Shown here in pieces: positions 2,185 to 17,451 of a DNA stretch of 64,000 nucleotides. The DNA is from an uncultured Alphaproteobacteria bacterium (lineage in GTDB: Bacteria; Pseudomonadota; Alphaproteobacteria; UBA6615). The DNA lies in the NCBI GenBank assembly GCA_943787445.1, contig CALSML010000025.1, positions 1-64,000 of the forward strand, read 5' to 3'. Within the stretch, counting starts at the first letter, position 1. The number at the start of each line of letters is the position of its first letter. Both the position numbers and the translations under genes were made by a program. Below the pieces are notes generated by a model that ran no database searches, was not told the DNA's origin, and was given only the letters and a program-made list of their open reading frames with translations.

Positions 2185-3114
2185 ATGCGTGACCTGACCG
2201 AATCAAATGTGACAGATGCAGTCCTGAATGTGATTGCGGATGACACCAATCCACGACTGAAGGAGATCATGGAGGCGCTTATTCGTCATTCCCATGACTT
2301 CATTCGTGAAGTGAATCTGAGCCCGGATGAATTGCTCTACGCAGCACGCTTCATTCAGAATGTGGGCCATATATCCGATGACAAGCGGGAAGAGGGTGTG
2401 TTGCTGGGCGATGTTCTTGGCATGACTGCTCTGGTGGAAATCCTTGGGGACCGTGAGCGCACAGGCGCAACGGAATCCAGTCTTCTGGGGCCGTTCTATC
2501 GTGAGGGTGCTCCGGCCCGCGAGATGGGCTTTGACATCTCACTGGATGATGATGAAGGCGAGCCCGCATTTCTGCAGGGGCGCGTGCTTGATTCAGATGG
2601 AAACCCGATCGAAGGCGTTATTCTGGATCTCTGGCAGACCTCCCCGAACATGTTCTACGAGGCCCAGGTCGGGCAGCCGAAGGACTATGAAGACTATGCG
2701 TATCGCGGGAAGTTCAAGACCGGTGCGGATGGTCGCTACTGGTTCCGCTCCCGTAAGCCTGTTGATTATCCGGTTCCGACCGATGGTCCGGTTGGATTGA
2801 TTCTGCATGGCACGGGCCGTCATTCCTGGCGGCCGGCACATCTGCACTATCTCATCTACAAGGACGGTTTTCAGACCATCCAGACCGAGATGTTCAACAG
2901 CGACAGCAAATATCTGGATTCAGATGCTGTCTTTGGCGTCAAGGAATCACTGATCATCCCTTACGAGAAGATCGACGATCCCGCACGCGCTGAGGAATAC
3001 GGTTTTAATGGTCCGTTCTACGAAGGCATTTTTGATTTCGTCATGAAGGACGATGCCAGCGTCAAGGATGCGGAAGCGGCATACAGCGAACGCGCTAGCA
3101 TGAGCTCGTCCTAG
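2185..3114 (+). CDS. Intradiol ring-cleavage dioxygenase (catechol or hydroxyquinol 1,2-dioxygenase)
   Basis: This non-haem Fe(III) enzyme cleaves catechol-type rings between the hydroxyls to cis,cis-muconates or maleylacetate. Residues 1-110 form the helical dimerisation domain (Dioxygenase_N), ending in SSLLGPFYREGAP. The catalytic beta-sandwich follows. The four iron ligands are visible: Tyr158 (in NMFYE), Tyr195 (in DYPVPTDGP), His219 and His221 (in RPAHLHY). The length, 309, is normal. A purine-rich GGAGATAAG sits before the ATG. The domain layout fits catechol and hydroxyquinol enzymes rather than protocatechuate 3,4-dioxygenase, but I cannot choose between the two. It is probably controlled by the divergent IclR regulator. 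Confidence 0.92.
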   Translation: MRDLTESNVTDAVLNVIADDTNPRLKEIMEALIRHSHDFIREVNLSPDELLYAARFIQNVGHISDDKREEGVLLGDVLGMTALVEILGDRERTGATESSLLGPFYREGAPAREMGFDISLDDDEGEPAFLQGRVLDSDGNPIEGVILDLWQTSPNMFYEAQVGQPKDYEDYAYRGKFKTGADGRYWFRSRKPVDYPVPTDGPVGLILHGTGRHSWRPAHLHYLIYKDGFQTIQTEMFNSDSKYLDSDAVFGVKESLIIPYEKIDDPARAEEYGFNGPFYEGIFDFVMKDDASVKDAEAAYSERASMSSS

Positions 3115-5931: not shown

Positions 5932-7257
5932 ATGAGTTCGCAAGGGGGGCTTGTGGTCAAAATCCGAACGAGACCGCGGCAGGACGGTTCGCCTGAAAGC
6001 GTTTTGTGCGATTTGTTTGAGCAGGCGTTGCTAGCGTCGGATCCAATGTCGTGTGTACCGGTGCATCTGCCCGAATTGGCTGAGAACGGACGCGTTGTCG
6101 TTGTCGGTGCGGGCAAGGCGTCTGCGGCGATGGCGAAGGCGGTTGAAGACGAGGCCCGGGCGCGGGGGTGGCTCGATCGGGTCGAAGGCATTGTTGTCAC
6201 CCGTTACGGACATGCTGTGGCGTGTGAGCGCATCGAAATCATCGAGGCGTCACATCCCGTTCCCGACGTTGCCGGTGAAATTGCGGCCCAGCGTGTCCTT
6301 GAACTGGCGCACGGCCTGAATTCACAGGACATGCTCCTCTGCCTGGTGTCGGGCGGTGGTTCGGCGCTGCTGGCATTGCCCGCGGACGGCGTCAGCGCGG
6401 CTGAGAAAGCCGCGGTCAATCGCGCGTTGCTGCGCAGCGGCGCGCCGATTGATGAGATGAACTGTGTGCGCAAGCATATTTCGGCAATAAAGGGCGGTCG
6501 GCTGGCCGCAGCGGCGGCACCGGCCCATGTCGTCAGTCTGATGATTTCCGATGTGCCCCGGGATGATCCGTCGGTCATCGCCTCGGGACCGACTGTCCCG
6601 GACCGGACAACCTCGGCGGACGCGCTGGCGGTGCTGGAACGCTACGGGATCGAGACGCCATCCAGCATTCGAGGATTGCTTGAGTCCGCGGCGGGGGAAA
6701 CGCCCAAGCCCGGTGACGCCACCTTTGCGAATGTGGAGAACATCATCATCGCCAAGCCCGGCGATATGCTGACCGCGGTTGCGGATACGGCGGAATTGCG
6801 GGGTCTGCACGTGGTCTCCCTTGGTGCCGATCTGGAAGGGGAGGCCCGTGATCTCGGACGGGAACACGCGGCACTGGCACGGCGCCTGAAGCGCGAGCGT
6901 CAGGGCGATCGGCCGATTGTCGTTCTCTCCGGTGGGGAGACGACGGTGACGGTTCGTGGTGAGGGTCGCGGCGGGCGAAATGCCGAATACGCGCTTGGTC
7001 TGGCGGCCGGGCTGCTGGGACAGGTGGGAGTATATGGTCTTGCCTGCGACACCGATGGCATTGACGGGGTGGAAGACAATGCCGGGGTTTTGGTGACGCC
7101 CGATACGCTGGAACGGGCGGTGGCGGCGAGGTTCGACGTGCAGGATGTCTTCGAGCGGAACGATGCCTACACGCTGTTTGCAGCACTCGATGATCTGGTG
7201 ATGACCGGGCCGACGCGCACCAATGTGAATGACTTCCGGGCCATTCTGATTGTCTGA
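5932..7257 (+). CDS. gckA: Glycerate 2-kinase (GckA/TtuD, MOFRL family)
   Basis: The protein of 441 residues matches the type II glycerate kinase family, which makes 2-phosphoglycerate from glycerate at the end of the serine cycle or glyoxylate, tartrate and hydroxypyruvate routes. The N-terminal DUF4147 domain shows VVGAGKASAAMA, ASHPVPD and LVSGGGSALL. The C-terminal MOFRL domain shows LSGGETTVTVRG, GGRNAEYAL and DTDGIDGVEDNAG. ATG at 5932 has no clear ribosome site; GTG at 5953 is preceded by AAGGGGGG but at only 3 bases, so either could be used. The gene diverges from amtB. Older annotations call such proteins hydroxypyruvate reductase. Confidence 0.88.
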   Translation: MSSQGGLVVKIRTRPRQDGSPESVLCDLFEQALLASDPMSCVPVHLPELAENGRVVVVGAGKASAAMAKAVEDEARARGWLDRVEGIVVTRYGHAVACERIEIIEASHPVPDVAGEIAAQRVLELAHGLNSQDMLLCLVSGGGSALLALPADGVSAAEKAAVNRALLRSGAPIDEMNCVRKHISAIKGGRLAAAAAPAHVVSLMISDVPRDDPSVIASGPTVPDRTTSADALAVLERYGIETPSSIRGLLESAAGETPKPGDATFANVENIIIAKPGDMLTAVADTAELRGLHVVSLGADLEGEARDLGREHAALARRLKRERQGDRPIVVLSGGETTVTVRGEGRGGRNAEYALGLAAGLLGQVGVYGLACDTDGIDGVEDNAGVLVTPDTLERAVAARFDVQDVFERNDAYTLFAALDDLVMTGPTRTNVNDFRAILIV

Positions 7258-7366: not shown

Positions 7367-8611
7367 ATGAGCCAGACAGCCTCCCAAGACTCAGCATCCA
7401 ACGAGCCAGCATCCAACACAACGCCGACCGTGACCCGGGAAGACATTCTCGCGCGCGCCGAAGCGCTTTTGCCCGTCGTGGCCGAACGCGCCGATACCGC
7501 GACCGAAGAGCGGCGTCTGCCCGAAGCCAATGTCCGCGATTTCCTGGATGCGGGTCTGTTCCAGATTCTCCAGCCCAAACGGGTCGGGGGCCTGGAGCTG
7601 GATTTCGGCATGCTGGTGGAGGTCGGCGCGGTGATCTCCCGGGTCTGCGCGTCGAGCGGCTGGAACGTCTCCAACATCGCCAGCCACCACTGGATGCTGG
7701 GCATGTGGCCCGAAGAGGCCCAGAACGAAGTCTGGGGCAAGAACGGCGAGACGGCGGACACGCTGATCTGCGCGTCGGTGATCTTTCCCGCCGGCCGCGC
7801 CAAACGGGTGGATGGCGGCTATCTGCTCAGCGGCCGCTGGCCGTTCTGCTCGGGGATCGATCCCAGCGAGTGGAACATGCTCGGCGGCATGGTCGAAGCC
7901 GATGACGACCACCCCGAGAAAGAAGCGCGGATGTTCCTGCTGCGCAAATCCGAGCACGAGGTGATCGACACCTGGTTCACCTCGGGCCTGCAGGGCACGG
8001 GCTCGAAGGATTCCGCGGCGGAAGAGATTTTCATCCCCGAACACATGACCGTGGCCGCCGACGATGTGAAGGGCGGGCCGACCCCGGGCAGCGCTGTCAA
8101 TCCCGGCGCGCTTTATCAGGTGCCGGTGATCGCGCCGTTCCCCTATGTGCTGACGGGAATGCCCCTGGGGATCGCCGAAGGGGTCTATCACAACTATGTG
8201 GAGGGCATGAAGGCCCGGACCGCCAATTACACCGGCGCGCGCATTGCCGATCTGCAGAACATCCAGATCAAGGTGGCCGAAGCCGGCGCCGCCATCGATG
8301 CCGCGCGGCTGATGATGATGGCCGATTGCGATCTGTCCATGCAGATTGCCGGACGCGGCGAAGCACCGGACCTGGAAACCAAGGCCAAGTTCCGGCGCAA
8401 CGGCGCCTATTCGGCCAATCTGTGTGTGGAGGCGGTCAACATTCTCTATCAGGCGAGCGGGGGCGGCGGCATCTACACCCGCAACCCGCTGGCACGTGCC
8501 TTCCGGGACATTCACGCCGCGCGGGCCCATATCGCCTTCAACATGGATGTGGCGGGTGCGACCTTCGGGCGGATCGCCCTGGGCCTCGGCTCCGACAACG
8601 CGGTTCTCTAG
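7367..8611 (+). CDS. Flavin-dependent monooxygenase, acyl-CoA dehydrogenase fold (HsaA/HpaB-C2-like)
   Basis: The 414-residue protein has the acyl-CoA dehydrogenase fold, and its features place it in the two-component aromatic monooxygenase group (HsaA, 4-hydroxyphenylacetate hydroxylase C2, DszC). Cues are an N-terminal RLPEANVRDFLDAGLFQILQ block, SGWNVSNIASHHWMLGM, SGRWPFCSGIDPSEW and LQGTGSKDSAAEEIFIPEH. Such enzymes use reduced flavin from a separate reductase, and no reductase gene is adjacent. ATG at 7367 was taken because GGAG lies 7 bases before it; a longer in-frame start at 7289 lacks a ribosome site. TetR follows with a one-base gap, so the pair is one operon. The substrate is unknown. 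Confidence 0.82.
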   Translation: MSQTASQDSASNEPASNTTPTVTREDILARAEALLPVVAERADTATEERRLPEANVRDFLDAGLFQILQPKRVGGLELDFGMLVEVGAVISRVCASSGWNVSNIASHHWMLGMWPEEAQNEVWGKNGETADTLICASVIFPAGRAKRVDGGYLLSGRWPFCSGIDPSEWNMLGGMVEADDDHPEKEARMFLLRKSEHEVIDTWFTSGLQGTGSKDSAAEEIFIPEHMTVAADDVKGGPTPGSAVNPGALYQVPVIAPFPYVLTGMPLGIAEGVYHNYVEGMKARTANYTGARIADLQNIQIKVAEAGAAIDAARLMMMADCDLSMQIAGRGEAPDLETKAKFRRNGAYSANLCVEAVNILYQASGGGGIYTRNPLARAFRDIHAARAHIAFNMDVAGATFGRIALGLGSDNAVL

Positions 8612-8612
8612 T

Positions 8613-9302
8613 TTGGCAAGGCCCGACCAGACGCCGCCGGACCCTAGTTTGCAGACGACCCGCGTGGCGCCGCGCCAGCGGCTGAGTCCCGAGGCCCGCG
8701 AACGACAGATCGTCGACGGCGCGATCGCGTTTTTTGCCGAGGTCGGCTTGGCGGGCCAGACCCGCGAGCTGGCCCAGCGACTGGGGGTGACCCAGCCGCT
8801 GATCTATCGCTATTTCCCGACCAAGCAGGACCTGATCGACCGGGTTTATGAGGAGGTCTTTGTCGGCCGCTGGCGGGCCGAGTGGACCGACCTGATCGGT
8901 GAGCGCGCGCGGCCCCTGCGGGACCGGCTGATCGCGTTCTACCGGATCTATGCGCGGGACGTGCTGACCTATGACTGGATCCGCATCTACATGTTTGCGG
9001 GCCTGGCCGGCGAGGACATCAACCGGCGCTATATCGCCCTGCTGGAAGACCAGCTGCTGGTGCCGATCGCGCGGGAGGTGCGCGCGGCGGCGGGCGCGCC
9101 GGCGCTTTCGGAAACGCCGGTGAGCGGGCTGGAAATCGAAGCGGCCTGGCACATTCACGCCGCGGTTTTCTATTACTTCGTGCGCAAGCACATCTACCGC
9201 GCCAAGACCGAACCGGACCTGAACGCGTTCATCGAGGATGCCGTCGACCGCACCCTGGATGGCGCACTCGCCGTGACACGGCGGGGGGGTGTGGCGGGGT
9301 GA
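8613..9302 (+). CDS. TetR-family transcriptional regulator
   Basis: The 229-residue protein has a TetR helix-turn-helix at about residues 30-72 (RELAQRLGVTQPLIYRYFPT), followed by a helical ligand domain with WRAEWTDLIGERARPLRDR and a C-terminal YYFVRKHIY region. The start is uncertain. TTG at 8613 abuts the monooxygenase stop, and TTG 8649 or GTG 8664 would drop only the non-conserved leader. It is translated right behind the monooxygenase, so it probably represses that operon in response to the aromatic substrate. The codon usage is richer in G+C than the genes to its left. Confidence 0.85.
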   Translation: MARPDQTPPDPSLQTTRVAPRQRLSPEARERQIVDGAIAFFAEVGLAGQTRELAQRLGVTQPLIYRYFPTKQDLIDRVYEEVFVGRWRAEWTDLIGERARPLRDRLIAFYRIYARDVLTYDWIRIYMFAGLAGEDINRRYIALLEDQLLVPIAREVRAAAGAPALSETPVSGLEIEAAWHIHAAVFYYFVRKHIYRAKTEPDLNAFIEDAVDRTLDGALAVTRRGGVAG

Positions 9303-9646: not shown

Positions 9647-10381
9647 CTATTGTGCGGCGGCGGCTTCCTTGCGGGCTTTGCGTTTGGCCCACCAGGTCTG
9701 AATGTCCAGCTTGAAATGCATGTAATAGACCTTGGGGAAGATGATCAGGATGTCGAACAGGGCGATCCAGCCGCCCTTCAGGGTCACCGGGATGGTGATG
9801 AAGGGGGAGGCGCCGAGAATGGCGACATGTTCGTCGGGGTTGATCGTATCTCGGTTTTCCAGCGCCCGTTCCACATTGTGGGCGAAGGACCAGTCGGCCC
9901 GATAGGTCACCTGACCCTCCGGGTTGATCACATAGACGGTGTTGGGGAGCAGGCCCCAGTCGTGATGCCATTTGCCGGCGACGTCATCGACGATGATCTT
10001 GCGCTCTTCGTTGTAATCGTCGCGGTTGCGCTTGGCGTATTCGATCTTCCCGTCGATGGTTTCGGCCTGTTTGGCCTTCTCGCCGGGATGGGCTTCGCGG
10101 ACATAGACCACAAGCCATTCCACATCGGGATATTTTTCCTTCAGCTTGGCGAAGGGCTTCACGTTCTTGACGTACATGGGGCAGGTCAGGCTGCCGGATT
10201 CGATCACCAGCCATTTGCCCTTGTAGTCGCTGAGGGAGACTTCCTTGCCGTCCAGATCGGTGAGGGTGTAGTCGTAATTGACGGTCTCACCAGCCTTCGG
10301 ACCCGGGAAATAGCCGAGTTCGTAGTTGCTCATCTTGAAACGCGGATAGGCGTAGCTGTCGTCACGTGCGGGAGCTGACAT
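9647..10381 (-). CDS. Deiodinase-like thioredoxin-fold protein with Cys in the catalytic position
   Basis: The 244-residue protein contains the iodothyronine-deiodinase type of thioredoxin fold. ESGSLTCPMYVKNVKPFAKL at about residues 61-80 corresponds to the GSxTUPPF motif of deiodinases, with Cys67 where the selenocysteine would be, and it is followed by DVEWLVVYVREAHPGE. The codon is TGC, so no recoding is involved. A hydrophobic segment at about 195-220 (FITIPVTLKGGWIALFDILI) may associate with the membrane, an uncommon addition, and the tail is Lys/Ala-rich. The likely role is a thiol peroxidase or reductase; bacterial deiodinase-like proteins have no settled substrate. It is monocistronic with its own terminator. 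Confidence 0.75.
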   Translation of the reverse strand: MSAPARDDSYAYPRFKMSNYELGYFPGPKAGETVNYDYTLTDLDGKEVSLSDYKGKWLVIESGSLTCPMYVKNVKPFAKLKEKYPDVEWLVVYVREAHPGEKAKQAETIDGKIEYAKRNRDDYNEERKIIVDDVAGKWHHDWGLLPNTVYVINPEGQVTYRADWSFAHNVERALENRDTINPDEHVAILGASPFITIPVTLKGGWIALFDILIIFPKVYYMHFKLDIQTWWAKRKARKEAAAAQ

Positions 10382-10516: not shown

Positions 10517-11296
10517 CTAAACGGTCGTCCAGCCCCCGTCGATGGTCAGGCTGGCGCCGGTGATGAGTTCGGAGGCCGGGGAGGCGAGAAAGACGATCGA
10601 GCCGGTGACATCGGTGATCTTGCCAAGGCGGCCCATCAGGATGCGATCCATCACGAATTGCTTGAACTCCGGATTCTCGAACATGGGCGCGGTCATCGGG
10701 GTTTCGATGAAGGTCGGCCCGATGCAGTTGCTGCGGATGTTCTGGGGTGCGAGTTCCGCAGCGATGGCCTTGCTCATGCCTTCGATGGCGTGCTTGCTGG
10801 CGCAATAGACCGTGCGATTCGGGGAGCCCACATGTCCCATCTGGGACGACATGTGGATCAGCGAGCCACCACGTCCGCCCGCCAGCATGCGCCGCGCGGC
10901 GGCCTGGGCGACGATGAACATGGACTTGATGTTGAGATCGAGCAGGAAGTCGAGATTTTCCTCCGACACGTCGACGAAGGGTTCGGGCCGGTTGGCGCCG
11001 GCGTTGTTCATCAGAATGTCGATCCGTTCCAGGCCCTCGATCTTTTCGGTGACCTGGGCAACATCGGTCACATCGCAGACGATGGGGGTGGCCTTGCCGC
11101 CAGCGGCGCGCACTTCCTCGACTACCGCTTCGAGTTCGGATTGGGTGCGGCTGACCAGCATGACTTCCGCGCCGGCTTCGGCCAGCGAAAGCGCGGCACC
11201 GCGGCCAAGGCCGCGTCCGGCACCGCTCACCACTGCCACAAGGCCGTCCAGACGAAGGGACGGGGTTTTCAGTTCTTCAGTCTCTGCCACGCTCAT
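10517..11296 (-). CDS. SDR-family oxidoreductase (2-deoxy-D-gluconate/3-oxoacyl reductase type)
   Basis: This classical short-chain dehydrogenase of 259 residues has the cofactor motif GAGRGLG at 25-31, NNAG at 97-100, and the catalytic Ser151, Tyr164 and Lys168 (YCASK). The C-terminal TGASLTIDGGWT is standard. Arg50 after the second strand (VSR) suggests NADP(H) preference. It diverges from the cyclase gene at 11446, so it may act on the product or precursor of that hydrolase, but the substrate cannot be read from sequence. Confidence 0.88.
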   Translation of the reverse strand: MSVAETEELKTPSLRLDGLVAVVSGAGRGLGRGAALSLAEAGAEVMLVSRTQSELEAVVEEVRAAGGKATPIVCDVTDVAQVTEKIEGLERIDILMNNAGANRPEPFVDVSEENLDFLLDLNIKSMFIVAQAAARRMLAGGRGGSLIHMSSQMGHVGSPNRTVYCASKHAIEGMSKAIAAELAPQNIRSNCIGPTFIETPMTAPMFENPEFKQFVMDRILMGRLGKITDVTGSIVFLASPASELITGASLTIDGGWTTV

Positions 11297-11445
11297 GTCT
11301 CAGGCTTCCTCTTGGATAGGCTCATTTCTTGTGAATGCATTCTTGCATTCCATTTTTCGAGCGACCATAACCGACGCCAAGTTCGGTTGTAAGACCGGCA
11401 ATGACGTTTCAATTTTTACGATCAGAATAGTCGAGGGAACAATCC

Positions 11446-12474
11446 ATGGCGAAGAAAGCGACGGCAAAGAAAACTGCGGCGAAGAAGCCGGCTGCAAAGA
11501 AGCGGGCTTCATCGAAGAAAAAGCTGCTCACCAAGGCAGACGTGATGCGCAAATGCCGGCAGCTCAACAACTGGGGCCGCTGGGGCAAGAATGACGAGCT
11601 GGGTGTGCTCAACTACATCACCCCGGAGATGATTGCCGATGCCGCCAAGCTGGTGAAGAAGGGCAAGGTTTTCCGTCTGGGTCTGAACCTGGATGAGAAC
11701 GGCCCGCAGAACGGTCTGTTCGGTGGTCGCTGGAACCCGATGCATCAGATGCTGGCAACCGGCACCGATGCGGTGCAGGGCATTCAGGAGCCTCTGGCCG
11801 GCATGCGCTATGCGGATGATGCGATCAACCTGCCGACCCAGTGCGCGACCCAGTGGGACGCGCTGGCCCATGTCTTCACCGATGACAAGATGTGGAACGG
11901 CTATGACGCGACCCTGGTCGATGTGCGCGGCGCCCACAAGAATGGCATCGAGCACTTCGCCGACAAGATGGTCGGTCGTGGCGTGCTGCTCGACGTGGCC
12001 AAGATGAAGGGCAAGAAGCGCCTGGCCGATGGTGAGGAAATCACCATCGCGGATCTGGAAAAGACCGCCAAGAAGCAGGGCGTCGAAGTACGCCGTGGCG
12101 ACTTCGTGATCTTCAACACCGGTCAGATGGCCGATTGCCTCGACAAGGGTGATTGGGGTGGTTACGCCGGTGGCGATGCGCCGGGACTAGCCTTCGAAAC
12201 CGTGGACTGGATTCACAAGAAGGAAATCTCGGGCATCTGCTCGGACACCTGGGGCATCGAAGTGCGTCCGAACCGCGCCGTACCGGGCATCAACCAGCCC
12301 TGGCACTGGGTCACGATCCCGCATATCGGTATTGTGCATGGTGAAATCTGGTATCTGCGTGAGCTGGTTGAGGATTGCGCCGAGGATGGTGTGTATGAGT
12401 TCTTCCTCAGCGCACCGCCGCTGGTGATCACGCGCGGCACCGGTTCGCCGATCAATCCGCAAGCGATCAAATAG
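11446..12474 (+). CDS. Cyclase-family metal-dependent hydrolase with a histone-H1-like N-terminal tail
   Basis: Residues 30-342 match the cyclase/kynurenine formamidase-like family (PF04199), cytoplasmic metallohydrolases that open lactone or amide bonds. The metal-site motif, usually HxGTHxDxPxH, reads QCATQWDALAH at 132-142; Asp138 and His142 remain while both leading His are Gln. The same change is in the neighbour at 12607, so it is a subfamily trait. Unusually, the first 26 residues hold 11 Lys, 8 Ala and 1 Arg in AAKK-type repeats, like bacterial H1 or AlgP tails, and this part is missing from the paralogue. GAGGGAACAATCC precedes the ATG. The stretch up to the stop is followed by a strong terminator. 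Confidence 0.85.
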   Translation: MAKKATAKKTAAKKPAAKKRASSKKKLLTKADVMRKCRQLNNWGRWGKNDELGVLNYITPEMIADAAKLVKKGKVFRLGLNLDENGPQNGLFGGRWNPMHQMLATGTDAVQGIQEPLAGMRYADDAINLPTQCATQWDALAHVFTDDKMWNGYDATLVDVRGAHKNGIEHFADKMVGRGVLLDVAKMKGKKRLADGEEITIADLEKTAKKQGVEVRRGDFVIFNTGQMADCLDKGDWGGYAGGDAPGLAFETVDWIHKKEISGICSDTWGIEVRPNRAVPGINQPWHWVTIPHIGIVHGEIWYLRELVEDCAEDGVYEFFLSAPPLVITRGTGSPINPQAIK

Positions 12475-12498
12475 CACGCAAAAATTTATGTGCTTTGG

Positions 12499-12535
12499 GG
12501 GCCACGTTCCGATGGAGCGTGGCCCCTTTGTTTTG
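12499..12535 (+). terminator. Rho-independent terminator after the first cyclase gene
   Basis: GGGGCCACG at 12499-12507 pairs with CGTGGCCCC at 12519-12527, and TTTGTTTT follows. Confidence 0.85.
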
Positions 12536-12606: not shown

Positions 12607-13590
12607 ATGCATCGTTATGACGATCCGAAATTCCAGATGGACATGGACACCATCAAGGAAAAATCCGAGCGCAACAAAAACTGGGGCAAATGGGGCCCCG
12701 ACGATGAGTGGGGCACGATCAACTATGTGGGTGACGAGGAGCGCAAGGCCGCGGCCCAGCTGGTGAAGCGGGGCGAGGTGTTCGCACTCGGTCTCAATTT
12801 TGACAGTGACGGTCCGCAGAACGGCCTGTTCGGTGGTCGCTGGAACCCGATTCACACCATGCTCGCGACGGGCACAGATGCTGTTGCCGGAAAGCAGACG
12901 GTTCCGGGTAAGAAATACGCCAGCCAGTACGCCGATGATGCTGTCTCGCTGCCGCTGCAGTGCGGCACCCAGTGGGATGCGCTGGGCCATGTCTTCAACA
13001 ACGACAAGATGTGGAATGGCTATGACGCGACCCTGGTTGGCGCGAATGGTGCGGAGAAGAACGCGATCCACAAGATGCGCAACAAGATGGTCGGTCGCGG
13101 CGTGCTGCTCGACATCGCGCGCTGGGCCGGGGTCGATTCCCTAGATGACGGCACCGCGATCGATGCCGAAGACCTGAACGCCTGTGCCAAGGCGCAGGGC
13201 GTGGAGATCAAGCGCGGCGATTTCGTTATCTACCGGACCGGACACATGGAACGTTGCCTGGCCGCGGGTGAGTGGGGTGGATATGCCGGCGGTGAAGCGC
13301 CGGGCGTGTCGTTCCACACCTGTGACTGGATGCACGACATGGAAATAGCCGCGATTTGCGCCGACACCTGGGGCTGCGAGGTCATTCCGAACGAGACCGA
13401 TGATGTGTTCCAGCCCTGGCACTGGATCGTGATTCCGCAGATTGGCATCACCATGGGCGAGATTTTCTATCTCAAGGATCTGGCCAATGACTGTGCGGAA
13501 GACGGCGTCTACGAGTTCATGTTCGTGGCACCGCCGCTGCCGATCACGCGAGGCGTTGGTTCGCCGATCAATCCGCAGGCGATCAAGTAG
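12607..13590 (+). CDS. Cyclase-family metal-dependent hydrolase, second copy
   Basis: This is a 327-residue paralogue of the protein encoded at 11446, with long shared blocks such as DGPQNGLFGGRWNP, LATGTDAV, DKMWNGYDATLV, KMVGRGVLLD and the identical C-terminus GSPINPQAIK. The metal-site motif is QCGTQWDALGH. It lacks the Lys/Ala-rich tail and starts MHRYDDPKFQ after CCGGGGGAGACCTGAC. Each copy has its own terminator, so they are separately transcribed tandem duplicates that have diverged, which suggests related but distinct substrates. Confidence 0.87.
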   Translation: MHRYDDPKFQMDMDTIKEKSERNKNWGKWGPDDEWGTINYVGDEERKAAAQLVKRGEVFALGLNFDSDGPQNGLFGGRWNPIHTMLATGTDAVAGKQTVPGKKYASQYADDAVSLPLQCGTQWDALGHVFNNDKMWNGYDATLVGANGAEKNAIHKMRNKMVGRGVLLDIARWAGVDSLDDGTAIDAEDLNACAKAQGVEIKRGDFVIYRTGHMERCLAAGEWGGYAGGEAPGVSFHTCDWMHDMEIAAICADTWGCEVIPNETDDVFQPWHWIVIPQIGITMGEIFYLKDLANDCAEDGVYEFMFVAPPLPITRGVGSPINPQAIK

Positions 13591-13694: not shown

Positions 13695-15008
13695 ATGGCC
13701 ATCAAAATCCTGAAAGAGGGTATGGATTCCGAAGCGACGGATGAAGCCGACGCCAAGGTTCGAGACATCGTTGAAGGCATCCTCGGTGATGTAAAGTCCC
13801 GCGGCGACGCTGCTGCCCGGGAACTCTCGGAGAAGTTCGACAAATGGTCGCCCGAAAGCTTCCGTCTGTCGGATGCGGATATCAAGGCGCTGATGGACAC
13901 GCTGTCCGAGCAGACCATCGAGGATATCAAGTTTGCCCAGACCCAGGTCCGCAACTTCGCGCAGATCCAGAAGGATTCCATGAAGGATGTGGAGGTCGAG
14001 ACGCTTCCCGGTGTGACCCTGGGCCACAAGAACATTCCGGTGAACAGCGTTGGCTGTTACGTGCCCGGTGGTCGTTATCCGATGGTGGCCTCGGCCCATA
14101 TGTCCATCGTGACCGCCAAGGTGGCCGGTGTGCCGCGGGTGATCGCCTGCACCCCGCCGAATGAAGGCGGGCCCCATGCCGCGACCATTGCGGCGATGCA
14201 TCTGGCCGGTGCGGATGAAATCTACTGCATGGGTGGTGTGCAGGCTGTGGCCGCCATGGCCCTGGGGACGGAAACCATTGATCCCTGCACGATGATCGTT
14301 GGCCCGGGCAATGCCTATGTGGCCGAAGCCAAGCGTCAGCTGTATGGCAAGGTGGGGATCGATCTCTTCGCTGGTCCGACCGAGGTTCTGGTGGTTGCCG
14401 ATCACACGGCGGACGTGGAAATGGTTGTGGTCGATCTGCTGGGGCAGGCCGAGCATGGCCCGAATTCACCAGCGGCGGTCATCACCAATTCACGCGAACT
14501 GGCCGAAGCCATTCCGGCCGAAATCGAGCGCCAGCTGAAGATTCTGCCGACTGCCGATATCGCCTCGGTGGCGTGGCAGGATTACGGCCAGATCATCCTG
14601 TGTGACACCCGCGAGGAAATGCGCGATGAAGCTGACCGCATTGCCTATGAGCATGTGGAAATCCTGACCGAGGACCCACGCTGGTATCTGGACAACATGA
14701 CCAATTTCGGCGCGTTGTTCATTGGTCCGGAAACCAATGTTGCCTATGGCGACAAGGTGATCGGCACCAACCACACGCTCCCCACCAAGGGGGCGGCGCG
14801 CTACACGGGCGGTCTGTGGGTCGGCAAGTTCATGAAGACCTGCACCTATCAGCAGATCACCGAAGAGGCGAGCGCGCTCGTGGGTGATTATTGTTCGCGT
14901 TTGTGCGAGGTCGAGCGCTTTTGGGGACACAAGGAGCAGGCTGATCTTCGCTTGCGTCGCTATGCAGGTCGCAATATCGGTATAGGTTCGACAGACGCTG
15001 CCAAATAG
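13695..15008 (+). CDS. Histidinol dehydrogenase-family alcohol dehydrogenase (HisD/HpsN-like)
   Basis: The 437-residue Zn- and NAD-dependent enzyme keeps the HisD active-site landmarks: [45 protein letters not shown] (Gln and His metal ligands), the EH pair in AYEHVEI, and [13 protein letters not shown]. HisD performs the last two steps of histidine synthesis, but no his gene is near. The [13 protein letters not shown]-type middle and the [10 protein letters not shown]-like C-terminal block ([16 protein letters not shown]) are closer to HpsN, which oxidises 2,3-dihydroxypropane-1-sulfonate to sulfolactate. With TRAP genes next door, a catabolic double oxidation of a primary alcohol to an acid is the better inference. 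It is monocistronic. Confidence 0.82.
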
Positions 15009-15077: not shown

Positions 15078-16163
15078 CTACTTGATGACGTAGTCATGAA
15101 CGGGCTTGGCGCCGTTCTCTTTTGCCAGAGCATGGAGACGCTTGAAGGTGGCTTTGCCCGGGAAACCGAGCTTCTCGTATTCAGCAGCCTTCTGGTTGAC
15201 CCAAGGCTCAATAGCCTGGGCCATCTTGTTGCGCTCTGCAGAGCCGAGATCGCGAACCGTCACACCTTGCTTCTTGAGGTTCTCGAGAGCTGAGGTGAAC
15301 TTACGCACGCCTTCGTCTTCAACTGCCTCGTTGTAGACATGGGTCTCTTCCATGATAATCTTCTTCACGGAATCCGGCAGCTTAGCCCAGGTCTTGTTGT
15401 TTACTGTCATTGGATAAGCAACAACCGAACCCCAGCCCATGGTGGTGTAATATTTGGCCACTTCACCAAACTTGAAGCCGAAATACGGCGCCGGAAAAAT
15501 CACGACACCCGAATACACACCCGACTGCAGGGCGTTGTAAACCTCGTTCAAGTTGGTCTGAACCTTCGAAGCGCCGGCATAGTCAAGCCAAGGCAGGTTC
15601 GGACCGGCCGCACCGATCTTCACACCCTTGAGCTCTTCCATCTTGGTCCACGGGAACTTCGTGCCTAGGCCGTAATCGTCGAATGCACCATTGGCGATAT
15701 AGGTTTGACCGTATTGATCAAAGATCTTGGAGAAGTAGTCGAACTCCTTGTGGATCTGACGCGTGGTCGGCCCCATGATCTTCGGATCGCCCGAGATGAA
15801 CGGATTGAAGTAGTTCAGGTTGTGGACGAACAGCTTAGTCGGCTCGAAGCAGGAGCACATCAGACCGATATCAACGAGACCTTTCTGGGTAGATTCGAGA
15901 GTTTCAAATAGGTTCGACATAGTGCCGCCGTAACCTTCGATAAAACGAATCGTATGATCAGTTTCGGCTGCCACGCGTTTTGTGACATTCGGTACGAAGG
16001 TCTTGTTGGCCTGATTCACACTTGCTAGCGGTGCCGAAGGATGGCCGGCAGCGATACGAATGTTGAAGTTGTCGGCGCTAGCCGAAGTTTGGGCCATGAC
16101 CAAACCTGCGGTCAGGACGCCAGCCGTTAAGACGGACTTTGTAGTCATTGAGTTGAGCTTCAC
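15078..16163 (-). CDS. TRAP transporter substrate-binding protein, DctP family (copy 1)
   Basis: This periplasmic binding protein of 361 residues has a signal peptide of about 30 residues (cleavage after TSASA, before DNFNIR). DctP features include AAGHPSAPLASVNQ, the TKMEELKGVKIGAAGPNLPW core that contacts ligand carboxylates in this family, and ALQSGVYSGVVIFPAPYFGF. Apart from the signal peptide it is almost the same protein as that encoded at 16369-17451. It is transcribed away from dctQM at 17883. CSCFEPTKLFVHNLNYF is an uncommon Cys-containing segment. It presumably delivers the substrate handled by the cyclases and the HisD-like enzyme. Confidence 0.88.
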   Translation of the reverse strand: MKLNSMTTKSVLTAGVLTAGLVMAQTSASADNFNIRIAAGHPSAPLASVNQANKTFVPNVTKRVAAETDHTIRFIEGYGGTMSNLFETLESTQKGLVDIGLMCSCFEPTKLFVHNLNYFNPFISGDPKIMGPTTRQIHKEFDYFSKIFDQYGQTYIANGAFDDYGLGTKFPWTKMEELKGVKIGAAGPNLPWLDYAGASKVQTNLNEVYNALQSGVYSGVVIFPAPYFGFKFGEVAKYYTTMGWGSVVAYPMTVNNKTWAKLPDSVKKIIMEETHVYNEAVEDEGVRKFTSALENLKKQGVTVRDLGSAERNKMAQAIEPWVNQKAAEYEKLGFPGKATFKRLHALAKENGAKPVHDYVIK

Positions 16164-16368: not shown

Positions 16369-17451
16369 CTACTTGATCGAGTAGTTGTGAACGGGCTTGG
16401 CGCCGTTCTCTTTGGCCAGCTCGATCAGACGATTGAAGGTGGCCTTGCCCGGGAAGCCCTGTGCTTCGTACTCGGCAGCCTTCTCGTTGACCCAGGGCTC
16501 AATGGCGAGGGCCATCTTGCCACGCTCTTCAGAGCCGAGATCGCGAACCGTCACACCCTGCTTCTTGAGGTTCTCAAGAGCCGAGGTGTATTTACGGACG
16601 CCTTCGTCCTCAACAGCGGTCTGGTAAACGTCCATTTCTTCCGTGATGATCTTCTTCACGGAATCAGGAAGCTTGGCCCAGGTCTTGTTGTTCACGGTCA
16701 CCGGATAGGCGAGGACCGAACCCCAACCCATTGTGGTGTAGTACTTGGCCACTTCACCGAACTTGAAGCCGAAATACGGAGCCGGGAAAATCACGACACC
16801 GGAGAACACGCCGGACTGCAGGGCGTTGTAGACTTCGTTCAGGTTGGTCTGGACCTTCGAGGCACCAGCATAGTCAAGCCAGGGAAGGTTCGGACCGGCA
16901 GCACCGATCTTCACGCCCTTGAGCTCTTCCATCTTGGTCCACGGGAACTTCGTGCCCAGGCCGTAATCATCGAATGCACCGCCGCCGATATAGGTCTGGC
17001 TGTACTGATCGAAGATCTTGGAGAAGTAATCGAACTCCTCATGAATCTGACGCGTGGTCGGACCCATGATCTTCGGATCGCCCGAGATGAACGGGGTGAA
17101 GTAGTTCAGGTTATGGACGAACAGCTTGGTCGGCTCGAAGCAGGAGCACATGGCACCAATGTCGACCAGGCCCTTCTGGGTGGATTCGAGAACCTCGAAC
17201 AGGTTGGCGATCGTGCCGCCGTAACCTTCAATGAACCGAACGGTGTGGTCGGTTTCGGCCGCCACGCGTTTGGTGACATTCGGAACGAAGGTCTTGTTGA
17301 GCTGATTGACAGTCGCAAGCGGAGCGGCCGGATGACCAGCAGCGATACGAATGTTGAAGTTATCAGCAAGAGCCGAGGTGGTGGTCGCAGTTGCTGCAAC
17401 AGCCATCAAGCCGGCCGCGGCAAAACTCGCGAGGTGTGTACGTGCTTTCAC
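16369..17451 (-). CDS. TRAP transporter substrate-binding protein, DctP family (copy 2)
   Basis: The 360-residue periplasmic protein has a signal peptide ending near TTSALA before DNFNIR. It matches copy 1 nearly residue for residue through the mature part; differences cluster at the N-terminus, around INGG/IANG near Tyr156 and near the C-terminus. The ligand core is intact. Its start is 431 bases from dctQ, in the opposite direction. Duplication of the soluble receptor with one membrane pair suggests a second ligand, or dosage. Confidence 0.88.
   Translation of the reverse strand: MKARTHLASFAAAGLMAVAATATTTSALADNFNIRIAAGHPAAPLATVNQLNKTFVPNVTKRVAAETDHTVRFIEGYGGTIANLFEVLESTQKGLVDIGAMCSCFEPTKLFVHNLNYFTPFISGDPKIMGPTTRQIHEEFDYFSKIFDQYSQTYIGGGAFDDYGLGTKFPWTKMEELKGVKIGAAGPNLPWLDYAGASKVQTNLNEVYNALQSGVFSGVVIFPAPYFGFKFGEVAKYYTTMGWGSVLAYPVTVNNKTWAKLPDSVKKIITEEMDVYQTAVEDEGVRKYTSALENLKKQGVTVRDLGSEERGKMALAIEPWVNEKAAEYEAQGFPGKATFNRLIELAKENGAKPVHNYSIK

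Follow-up and report, generated by a model that had tools for sequence, protein, structure and literature searches.

The window, that is the whole 64,000 nt stretch of DNA analysed, contains two tandem hydrolase genes, here called CYC1 and CYC2. CYC1 is the ORF 11446-12474 (342 aa), and its codons 1-26 (11446-11523) encode MAKKATAKKTAAKKPAAKKRASSKKK, a Lys/Ala-rich N-terminal tail preceding the catalytic core. The features of the locus are given below with the evidence for each in brackets.

9647-10381, minus strand: peroxiredoxin/deiodinase-like protein, a neighbour in most loci (domain scan, locus comparison)
10517-11296, minus strand: divergent SDR oxidoreductase, a conserved neighbour (domain scan, locus comparison)
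11343-11371, plus strand: promoter-like TTGCAT-17-CATAAC, the putative CYC1 promoter (most bases invariant in 8 relatives)
11433-11437, plus strand: Shine-Dalgarno sequence GAGGG of ATG11446 (CGAGG and ATGGC show no variation among 8 aligned relatives)
11446-11523, plus strand: polycationic N-terminal tail of 26 codons, predicted to be disordered (composition, conservation, pLDDT, drift simulation)
11524-12474, plus strand: catalytic core of CYC1, a PF04199 metal-dependent hydrolase with the motif Q-x-x-x-Q-x-D-x-x-x-H (Pfam, 5ibz match, fold match)
12497-12527, plus strand: terminator-like hairpin between CYC1 and CYC2, 14 pairs followed by a T-rich stretch (sequence retained by the majority of g1 and g5 members)
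12607-13590, plus strand: tail-less tandem paralogue CYC2, starting MHRYDDP (alignment, N-termini of relatives)
13695-15008, plus strand: HisD-like dehydrogenase (PF00815), a conserved neighbour (domain scan, locus comparison)
15078-16163, minus strand: TRAP transporter solute receptor (DctP), a neighbour in many loci (domain scan, locus comparison)

PF04199 was found in CYC1 at 2.1e-24 (86.8 bits against a gathering cut-off of 23.1), and the closest solved structure was 5ibz (MGS0169), which covered residues 36-342 (phmmer 1.3e-67) and was also the best fold match. MGS0169 has been described as a Mn2+-stimulated and probably tetrameric esterase with a modified motif consisting of Gln127, Gln131, Asp133 and His137 along with Arg87, His286 and Glu299 (PMC5341072). 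The two proteins belong to the same PF04199 fold family, and the alignment to 5ibz shows all seven catalytic or ligand residues in common, being Q132, Q136, D138, H142, R95, H287 and E300 in CYC1. CYC1 accordingly carries the Q-x-x-x-Q-x-D-x-x-x-H motif of the MGS0169 group with the equivalents of Arg87, His286 and Glu299, and not the H-x-G-T/A-H-x-D-x-P-x-H motif of classical kynurenine formamidase and isatin hydrolase, as both of the first His are Gln (Q132, Q136). CYC1 differs in having a 26-residue basic tail; the crystallised MGS0169 fragment begins at residue 21. Judging from the catalytic residues, it is very probable that CYC1 hydrolyses esters, lactones or amides in a metal-dependent way, and it may be a tetramer like MGS0169. 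The Q-type PF04199 motif is also present in trans-dienelactone hydrolase, hence an aromatic or lactone substrate is conceivable for CYC1. An intradiol catechol dioxygenase (PF00775/PF04444) is encoded at 2185-3114 of the window. Five distant acidobacterial homologues have N-termini with the appearance of signal peptides, which suggests that periplasmic versions occur among them.

As far as the contigs extend, the tailed loci have CYC1 together with the SDR, CYC2 and HisD-like genes, mostly with the peroxiredoxin-like gene and often with a TRAP DctP gene; in the loci of the Rokubacteria orthologues these neighbours were searched for and not found. In the window there are two closely similar DctP receptors in tandem (15078-16163 and 16369-17451), and a MOFRL/DUF4147 glycerate-kinase-like protein is encoded at 5932-7257. 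HisD-like enzymes include sulfopropanediol dehydrogenase. We suggest that the MOFRL/DUF4147 protein, the SDR, the HisD-like dehydrogenase, the two hydrolases and the TRAP receptors make up a small-molecule catabolic cluster.

Aligning the 5' region of eight relatives from genera g1 and g5 revealed that CGAGG and ATGGC are both invariant. Met34, named by the first-pass annotation as a possible true start, is not conserved, as Val or Leu is found at that place in other genera, and three loci have no alternative start codon ahead of the core. According to these comparisons ATG11446 is the start of CYC1. Further upstream, the TTGCAT-17-CATAAC sequence along with the terminator-like hairpin suggests that CYC1 has its own transcription unit in g1 and g5; a consensus scan for sigma-70-type promoters listed none in the stretch 11343-11371. 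Between the divergent SDR and CYC1 genes, a near-palindrome at 11333-11371 (GGAATGCAnnCTTGCATTCC-like in some relatives) overlaps a conserved CTTGCA that resembles a -35 box; the palindrome is possibly an operator, and a TetR-family gene is located at 8346-9302. The CYC1 leader (11376-11400) has a conserved GTAAG(A/G)CCGG-like stretch in g1 and g5, and the leader of one relative contains the inverted repeat CCGG-TTGTAAGA-CCGG. No RNA family was detected by an Rfam scan of the window, the CYC1 leader included.

Residues 1-26 of CYC1 comprise 11 Lys, 1 Arg and 8 Ala and no Asp or Glu, giving a net charge of +12; the 11 Lys and 8 Ala had been counted correctly, and correctly placed, in the first-pass annotation. 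The tail is Lys/Ala-rich and strongly basic with few acidic or hydrophobic residues, as are bacterial histone H1-like tails. A degenerate nucleotide pattern of the AKK repeat, GCNAARAARNNNGCNNNNAARAAR, with one mismatch allowed, gave three matches in the window, all within the CYC1 tail, where 0.00 are expected per window (none of 100 dinucleotide shuffles had a match). These shuffles, together with the drift simulation presented below, rule out chance low complexity as the source of the tail. In the AlphaFold model residues 1-24 have pLDDT below 50, which is weak evidence of disorder as the alignment was shallow and the mean pLDDT of the whole model is 64; in the cell the tail would presumably be disordered.

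The orthologue search covered 84,980 species genomes and the whole order (24 genomes), and resulted in 14 full-length CYC1 orthologues from five genera of one order of marine Alphaproteobacteria, plus one fragment at a contig end. The tail is present in all 14 and in the fragment. The H1- or AlgP-like Lys/Ala tail that the first-pass annotation reported on a cyclase-family hydrolase is therefore real, and the lack of conservation among relatives that it named as grounds for doubt is not what we find. The 14 tails are 17-32 residues long with a net charge of +8 to +14 and 0-1 hydrophobic residues, and there is no acidic residue among their 303 positions (pooled composition K 0.376, A 0.254, R 0.109, D/E 0), while sequence and length differ between orthologues. 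In the AT-rich genus g2 (MAGKSTTTKGKAKNKSTTRKKG) Ala is replaced by Thr, Ser, Asn and Gly, and Lys/Arg is kept. Since composition varies in this way while Lys/Arg persists, the conserved property, as read from the alignments, is positive charge free of acidic and hydrophobic residues, probably together with disorder, and the "H1-like" Lys/Ala look seems partly to be an effect of base composition. Among 385 alphaproteobacterial genomes outside the order no match at E <= 1e-100 was found outside the family, and the distant homologues showed no convincing tail, the basic stretches of two of them lying upstream of the likely starts.

Synonymous sites of the core, compared from genus to genus, are near or at saturation (pS 0.4-1.1, with dN about 0.1 or less), and the codon-aligned tails of three g5 species gave pS 0.26-0.38 versus pN 0.04-0.11. 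At 0.2-0.6 substitutions per site, a neutral drift simulation starting from the window tail, in which the start sequence, the substitution model and the use of six lineages are simplifications, yielded tails with a mean of 1.2-2.0 acidic residues. The chance that six lineages would all keep eight or more K/R and no more than one hydrophobic residue without gaining any D/E was about 7e-6 at 0.2 substitutions per site, which is the most lenient setting, and far lower still at the observed synonymous divergence. Purifying selection on the tail for positive charge is supported by these sequence-based estimates.

In a tree of 64 proteins the tailed proteins form a single clade (100/99), sister to the Rokubacteria orthologues (pair 100/99), with one state change. 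The Rokubacteria orthologues (75-76% identity, searched for in the genomes of known loci) read MAKLTRDDVLKK (start MAK-LTRDDV), exactly without the tail. Four paralogue clades, that of CYC2 among them, fall outside this pair, and because the clades of CYC1 and CYC2 had already parted when the tail-less Rokubacteria orthologues diverged, the CYC1/CYC2 split is much older than the tail. The gene at 12607 starts MHRYDDPKF, in agreement with the earlier statement that the tandem paralogue has no tail, and the relatives of CYC2 start MHRYDD/E with two exceptions (MHKFDD and MHRHDD). None of the 43 paralogous N-termini inspected in the order is tailed, which rules out overlooked paralogue tails. The first-pass annotation regarded the paralogue as otherwise very similar, which overstates an identity of about 60-62%. 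It further proposed that the tail was added to, or lost from, one duplicate: addition in the CYC1 lineage agrees with the tree, but an asymmetry arising after a recent tandem duplication is ruled out, as the paralogue clades are older than the tail. On this phylogeny the tail is a single lineage-specific gain in CYC1, in the ancestor of one marine Alphaproteobacteria order and well after the duplication; loss in Rokubacteria instead of gain would need an extra assumption.

Other Lys/Ala tails were located in five genomes by tail and pattern searches, which miss diverged tails, and the tail-like clusters alone were examined further. Trigger factor, topoisomerase I and CarD carry the other tracts examined in the genome of the window; in the four related genomes an Smr protein, a DEAD-box helicase and ribosomal protein L21 have them too. 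Each of these proteins acts on DNA, RNA or the ribosome, and the hydrolase is the sole metabolic enzyme seen with a tail; within this order, Lys/Ala tails look like a recurrent feature of proteins that work on nucleic acid or the ribosome. The tails are C-terminal on trigger factor and topoisomerase I in the genome of the window, and on L21 in the relatives. The CarD-type regulator (L178, G000:C1:2800-5000, minus strand) has an N-terminal Lys/Ala/Pro tail of ~120 residues. In the g2, g7 and g9 genomes checked CarD is untailed (open frames of 175-176 aa) and the hydrolase tail is kept, hence the longer tail of CarD is less conserved than that of the hydrolase. With CarD tailed in some genera and not in others, gain of Lys/Ala repeats appears to be easy in these GC-rich genomes.

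For a tail that, on the evidence of the sequences, is encoded and read from the real start, kept by selection for its charge, of single origin and attached to an intact catalytic core, we propose a role as a sequence-nonspecific electrostatic tether that keeps CYC1 on a polyanion inside the cell, with nucleic acid or the ribosome as the likeliest partner. We rate the chances of this as even; binding to a polyanion is favoured because the other examined Lys/Ala tails sit on nucleic-acid and ribosome proteins. That the tail binds, what it binds and how the cell profits are what we infer here. The ancestor of the order gained once, on CYC1, a presumably disordered polycationic tail of 17-32 residues, and this hydrolase of a small-molecule catabolic cluster would then be held on the polyanion by tail charge, as HbhA, HupB, AlgP and eukaryotic aminoacyl-tRNA synthetases are by their Lys-rich tails. 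If CYC1 is a tetramer like MGS0169, four tails would bring ~+40 charges in all, resulting in avidity and clustering, and catalysis would presumably be unaffected. That a catabolic hydrolase, by acquiring an H1-like tail once, was recruited throughout a marine order to the nucleoid, RNA/ribosomes or polyphosphate is a tentative reading, which we place somewhat short of even.

The tail could instead bind an acidic protein surface and no nucleic acid, the partner being a member of the pathway (SDR, HisD-like dehydrogenase or CYC2) or the acidic core of the CYC1 tetramer itself, and the role being complex stabilisation, steering of anionic substrates or solubility. The core has a negative net charge in most orthologues (-8 to 0) and the neighbourhood of SDR, CYC1, CYC2 and HisD-like genes is conserved, as such a role would lead one to expect. 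Core charge is, however, not tracked by tail charge (one orthologue has a core of 0 and a tail of +14), and the Rokubacteria orthologues manage without a tail, though the searched-for neighbours were not found in those loci. Taking into account also that the other examined Lys/Ala tails belong to nucleic-acid or ribosome proteins, we find this explanation unlikely.

It seems distinctly unlikely that the tail holds CYC1 on polyphosphate granules or the anionic inner membrane, and not on nucleic acid. Lys-rich tails do associate with polyP granules as well, as found for AlgP (PMC9239181), and TRAP transporter genes lie within the locus, but with 0-1 hydrophobic residues per tail and almost no aromatics there is no amphipathic insertion motif, and the locus gives no hint of polyP. 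The near absence of hydrophobic residues speaks against a classical amphipathic membrane anchor.

We give little credence to the tail being a functionless codon-repeat expansion (GCN/AAR), or serving early translation or expression alone. Several other proteins in these genomes bear Lys/Ala tracts and the length of the tail differs between species, as expected of such an expansion, but the tail is kept in five genera despite high synonymous divergence and without one acidic residue, it persists in AT-rich g2 and in genera with an untailed CarD, and it is too long for a simple start-codon-proximal effect. An annotation artefact, in which an internal start (Met34 or GTG33) is used and the tail is never made, can be dismissed as extremely improbable, since the in-frame GTG-ATG pair at codons 33-34 of CYC1 is outweighed by the three loci lacking any alternative start, the replacement of Met34 elsewhere, the invariant Shine-Dalgarno sequence and ATGGC, and the amino-acid-level constraint on the tail.

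If the electrostatic tether is true, a soluble metabolic enzyme has been given a constitutive address on a polyanion. Lys/Ala tails are already known on bacterial nucleoid, granule and ribosome proteins, and what is new is a metabolic hydrolase as host; a literature search of incomplete coverage gave no description of a Lys/Ala tail on a PF04199 enzyme. The tail-less Rokubacteria orthologue and the tail-less tandem paralogue are natural controls for charge-tag addressing of metabolic enzymes to DNA/RNA, and the system bears on whether bacteria address metabolic enzymes in this simple way and gain from it.

Among known basic tails, that of HbhA (AKKA type, residues 161-199) is reported to be both required for sequence-independent DNA binding and sufficient for it, yet M. 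tuberculosis RplV, which has four AKKA repeats, gave no DNA binding in gel shift (PMC10665949), hence AKKA motif content is no guarantee of DNA binding. The Mycobacterium proteins HbhA and HupB have AKK-type repeats in a basic tail as CYC1 does, but their tails are C-terminal and the hosts are non-enzymatic. The C-terminal KPAA domain of AlgP binds DNA and is required for polyP granule spacing (PMC9239181). The Lys-Pro-Ala domains of AlgP and PhaF are low-complexity, Lys/Ala-rich and polycationic like the CYC1 tail, and disordered as the CYC1 tail is predicted to be, whereas they are long (~150 aa in AlgP), C-terminal and found on granule- or DNA-organising hosts, and the CYC1-type tail is N-terminal, on a metabolic enzyme and, with 17-32 residues, below the length of the HbhA and AlgP tails for which DNA binding has been tested. 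Actinobacterial TopA is stabilised on DNA by its Lys repeats (PMC7398561); bacterial topoisomerase I, tailed in the present genome as well, resembles CYC1 as an enzyme of GC-rich bacteria with a Lys/Ala tail, and differs in that the host acts on DNA and the tail is C-terminal. The disordered basic N-terminal extensions of eukaryotic LysRS, the human enzyme included, and AspRS give nonspecific nucleic acid binding (PMC6213541), and yeast AspRS has a Lys-rich segment of 23 residues (cited in PMC6213541). As in CYC1, these are basic N-terminal extensions, disordered as is predicted for CYC1, on otherwise ordinary enzymes having relatives without the extension, but LysRS and AspRS are eukaryotic and the substrate of the host enzyme is already RNA.
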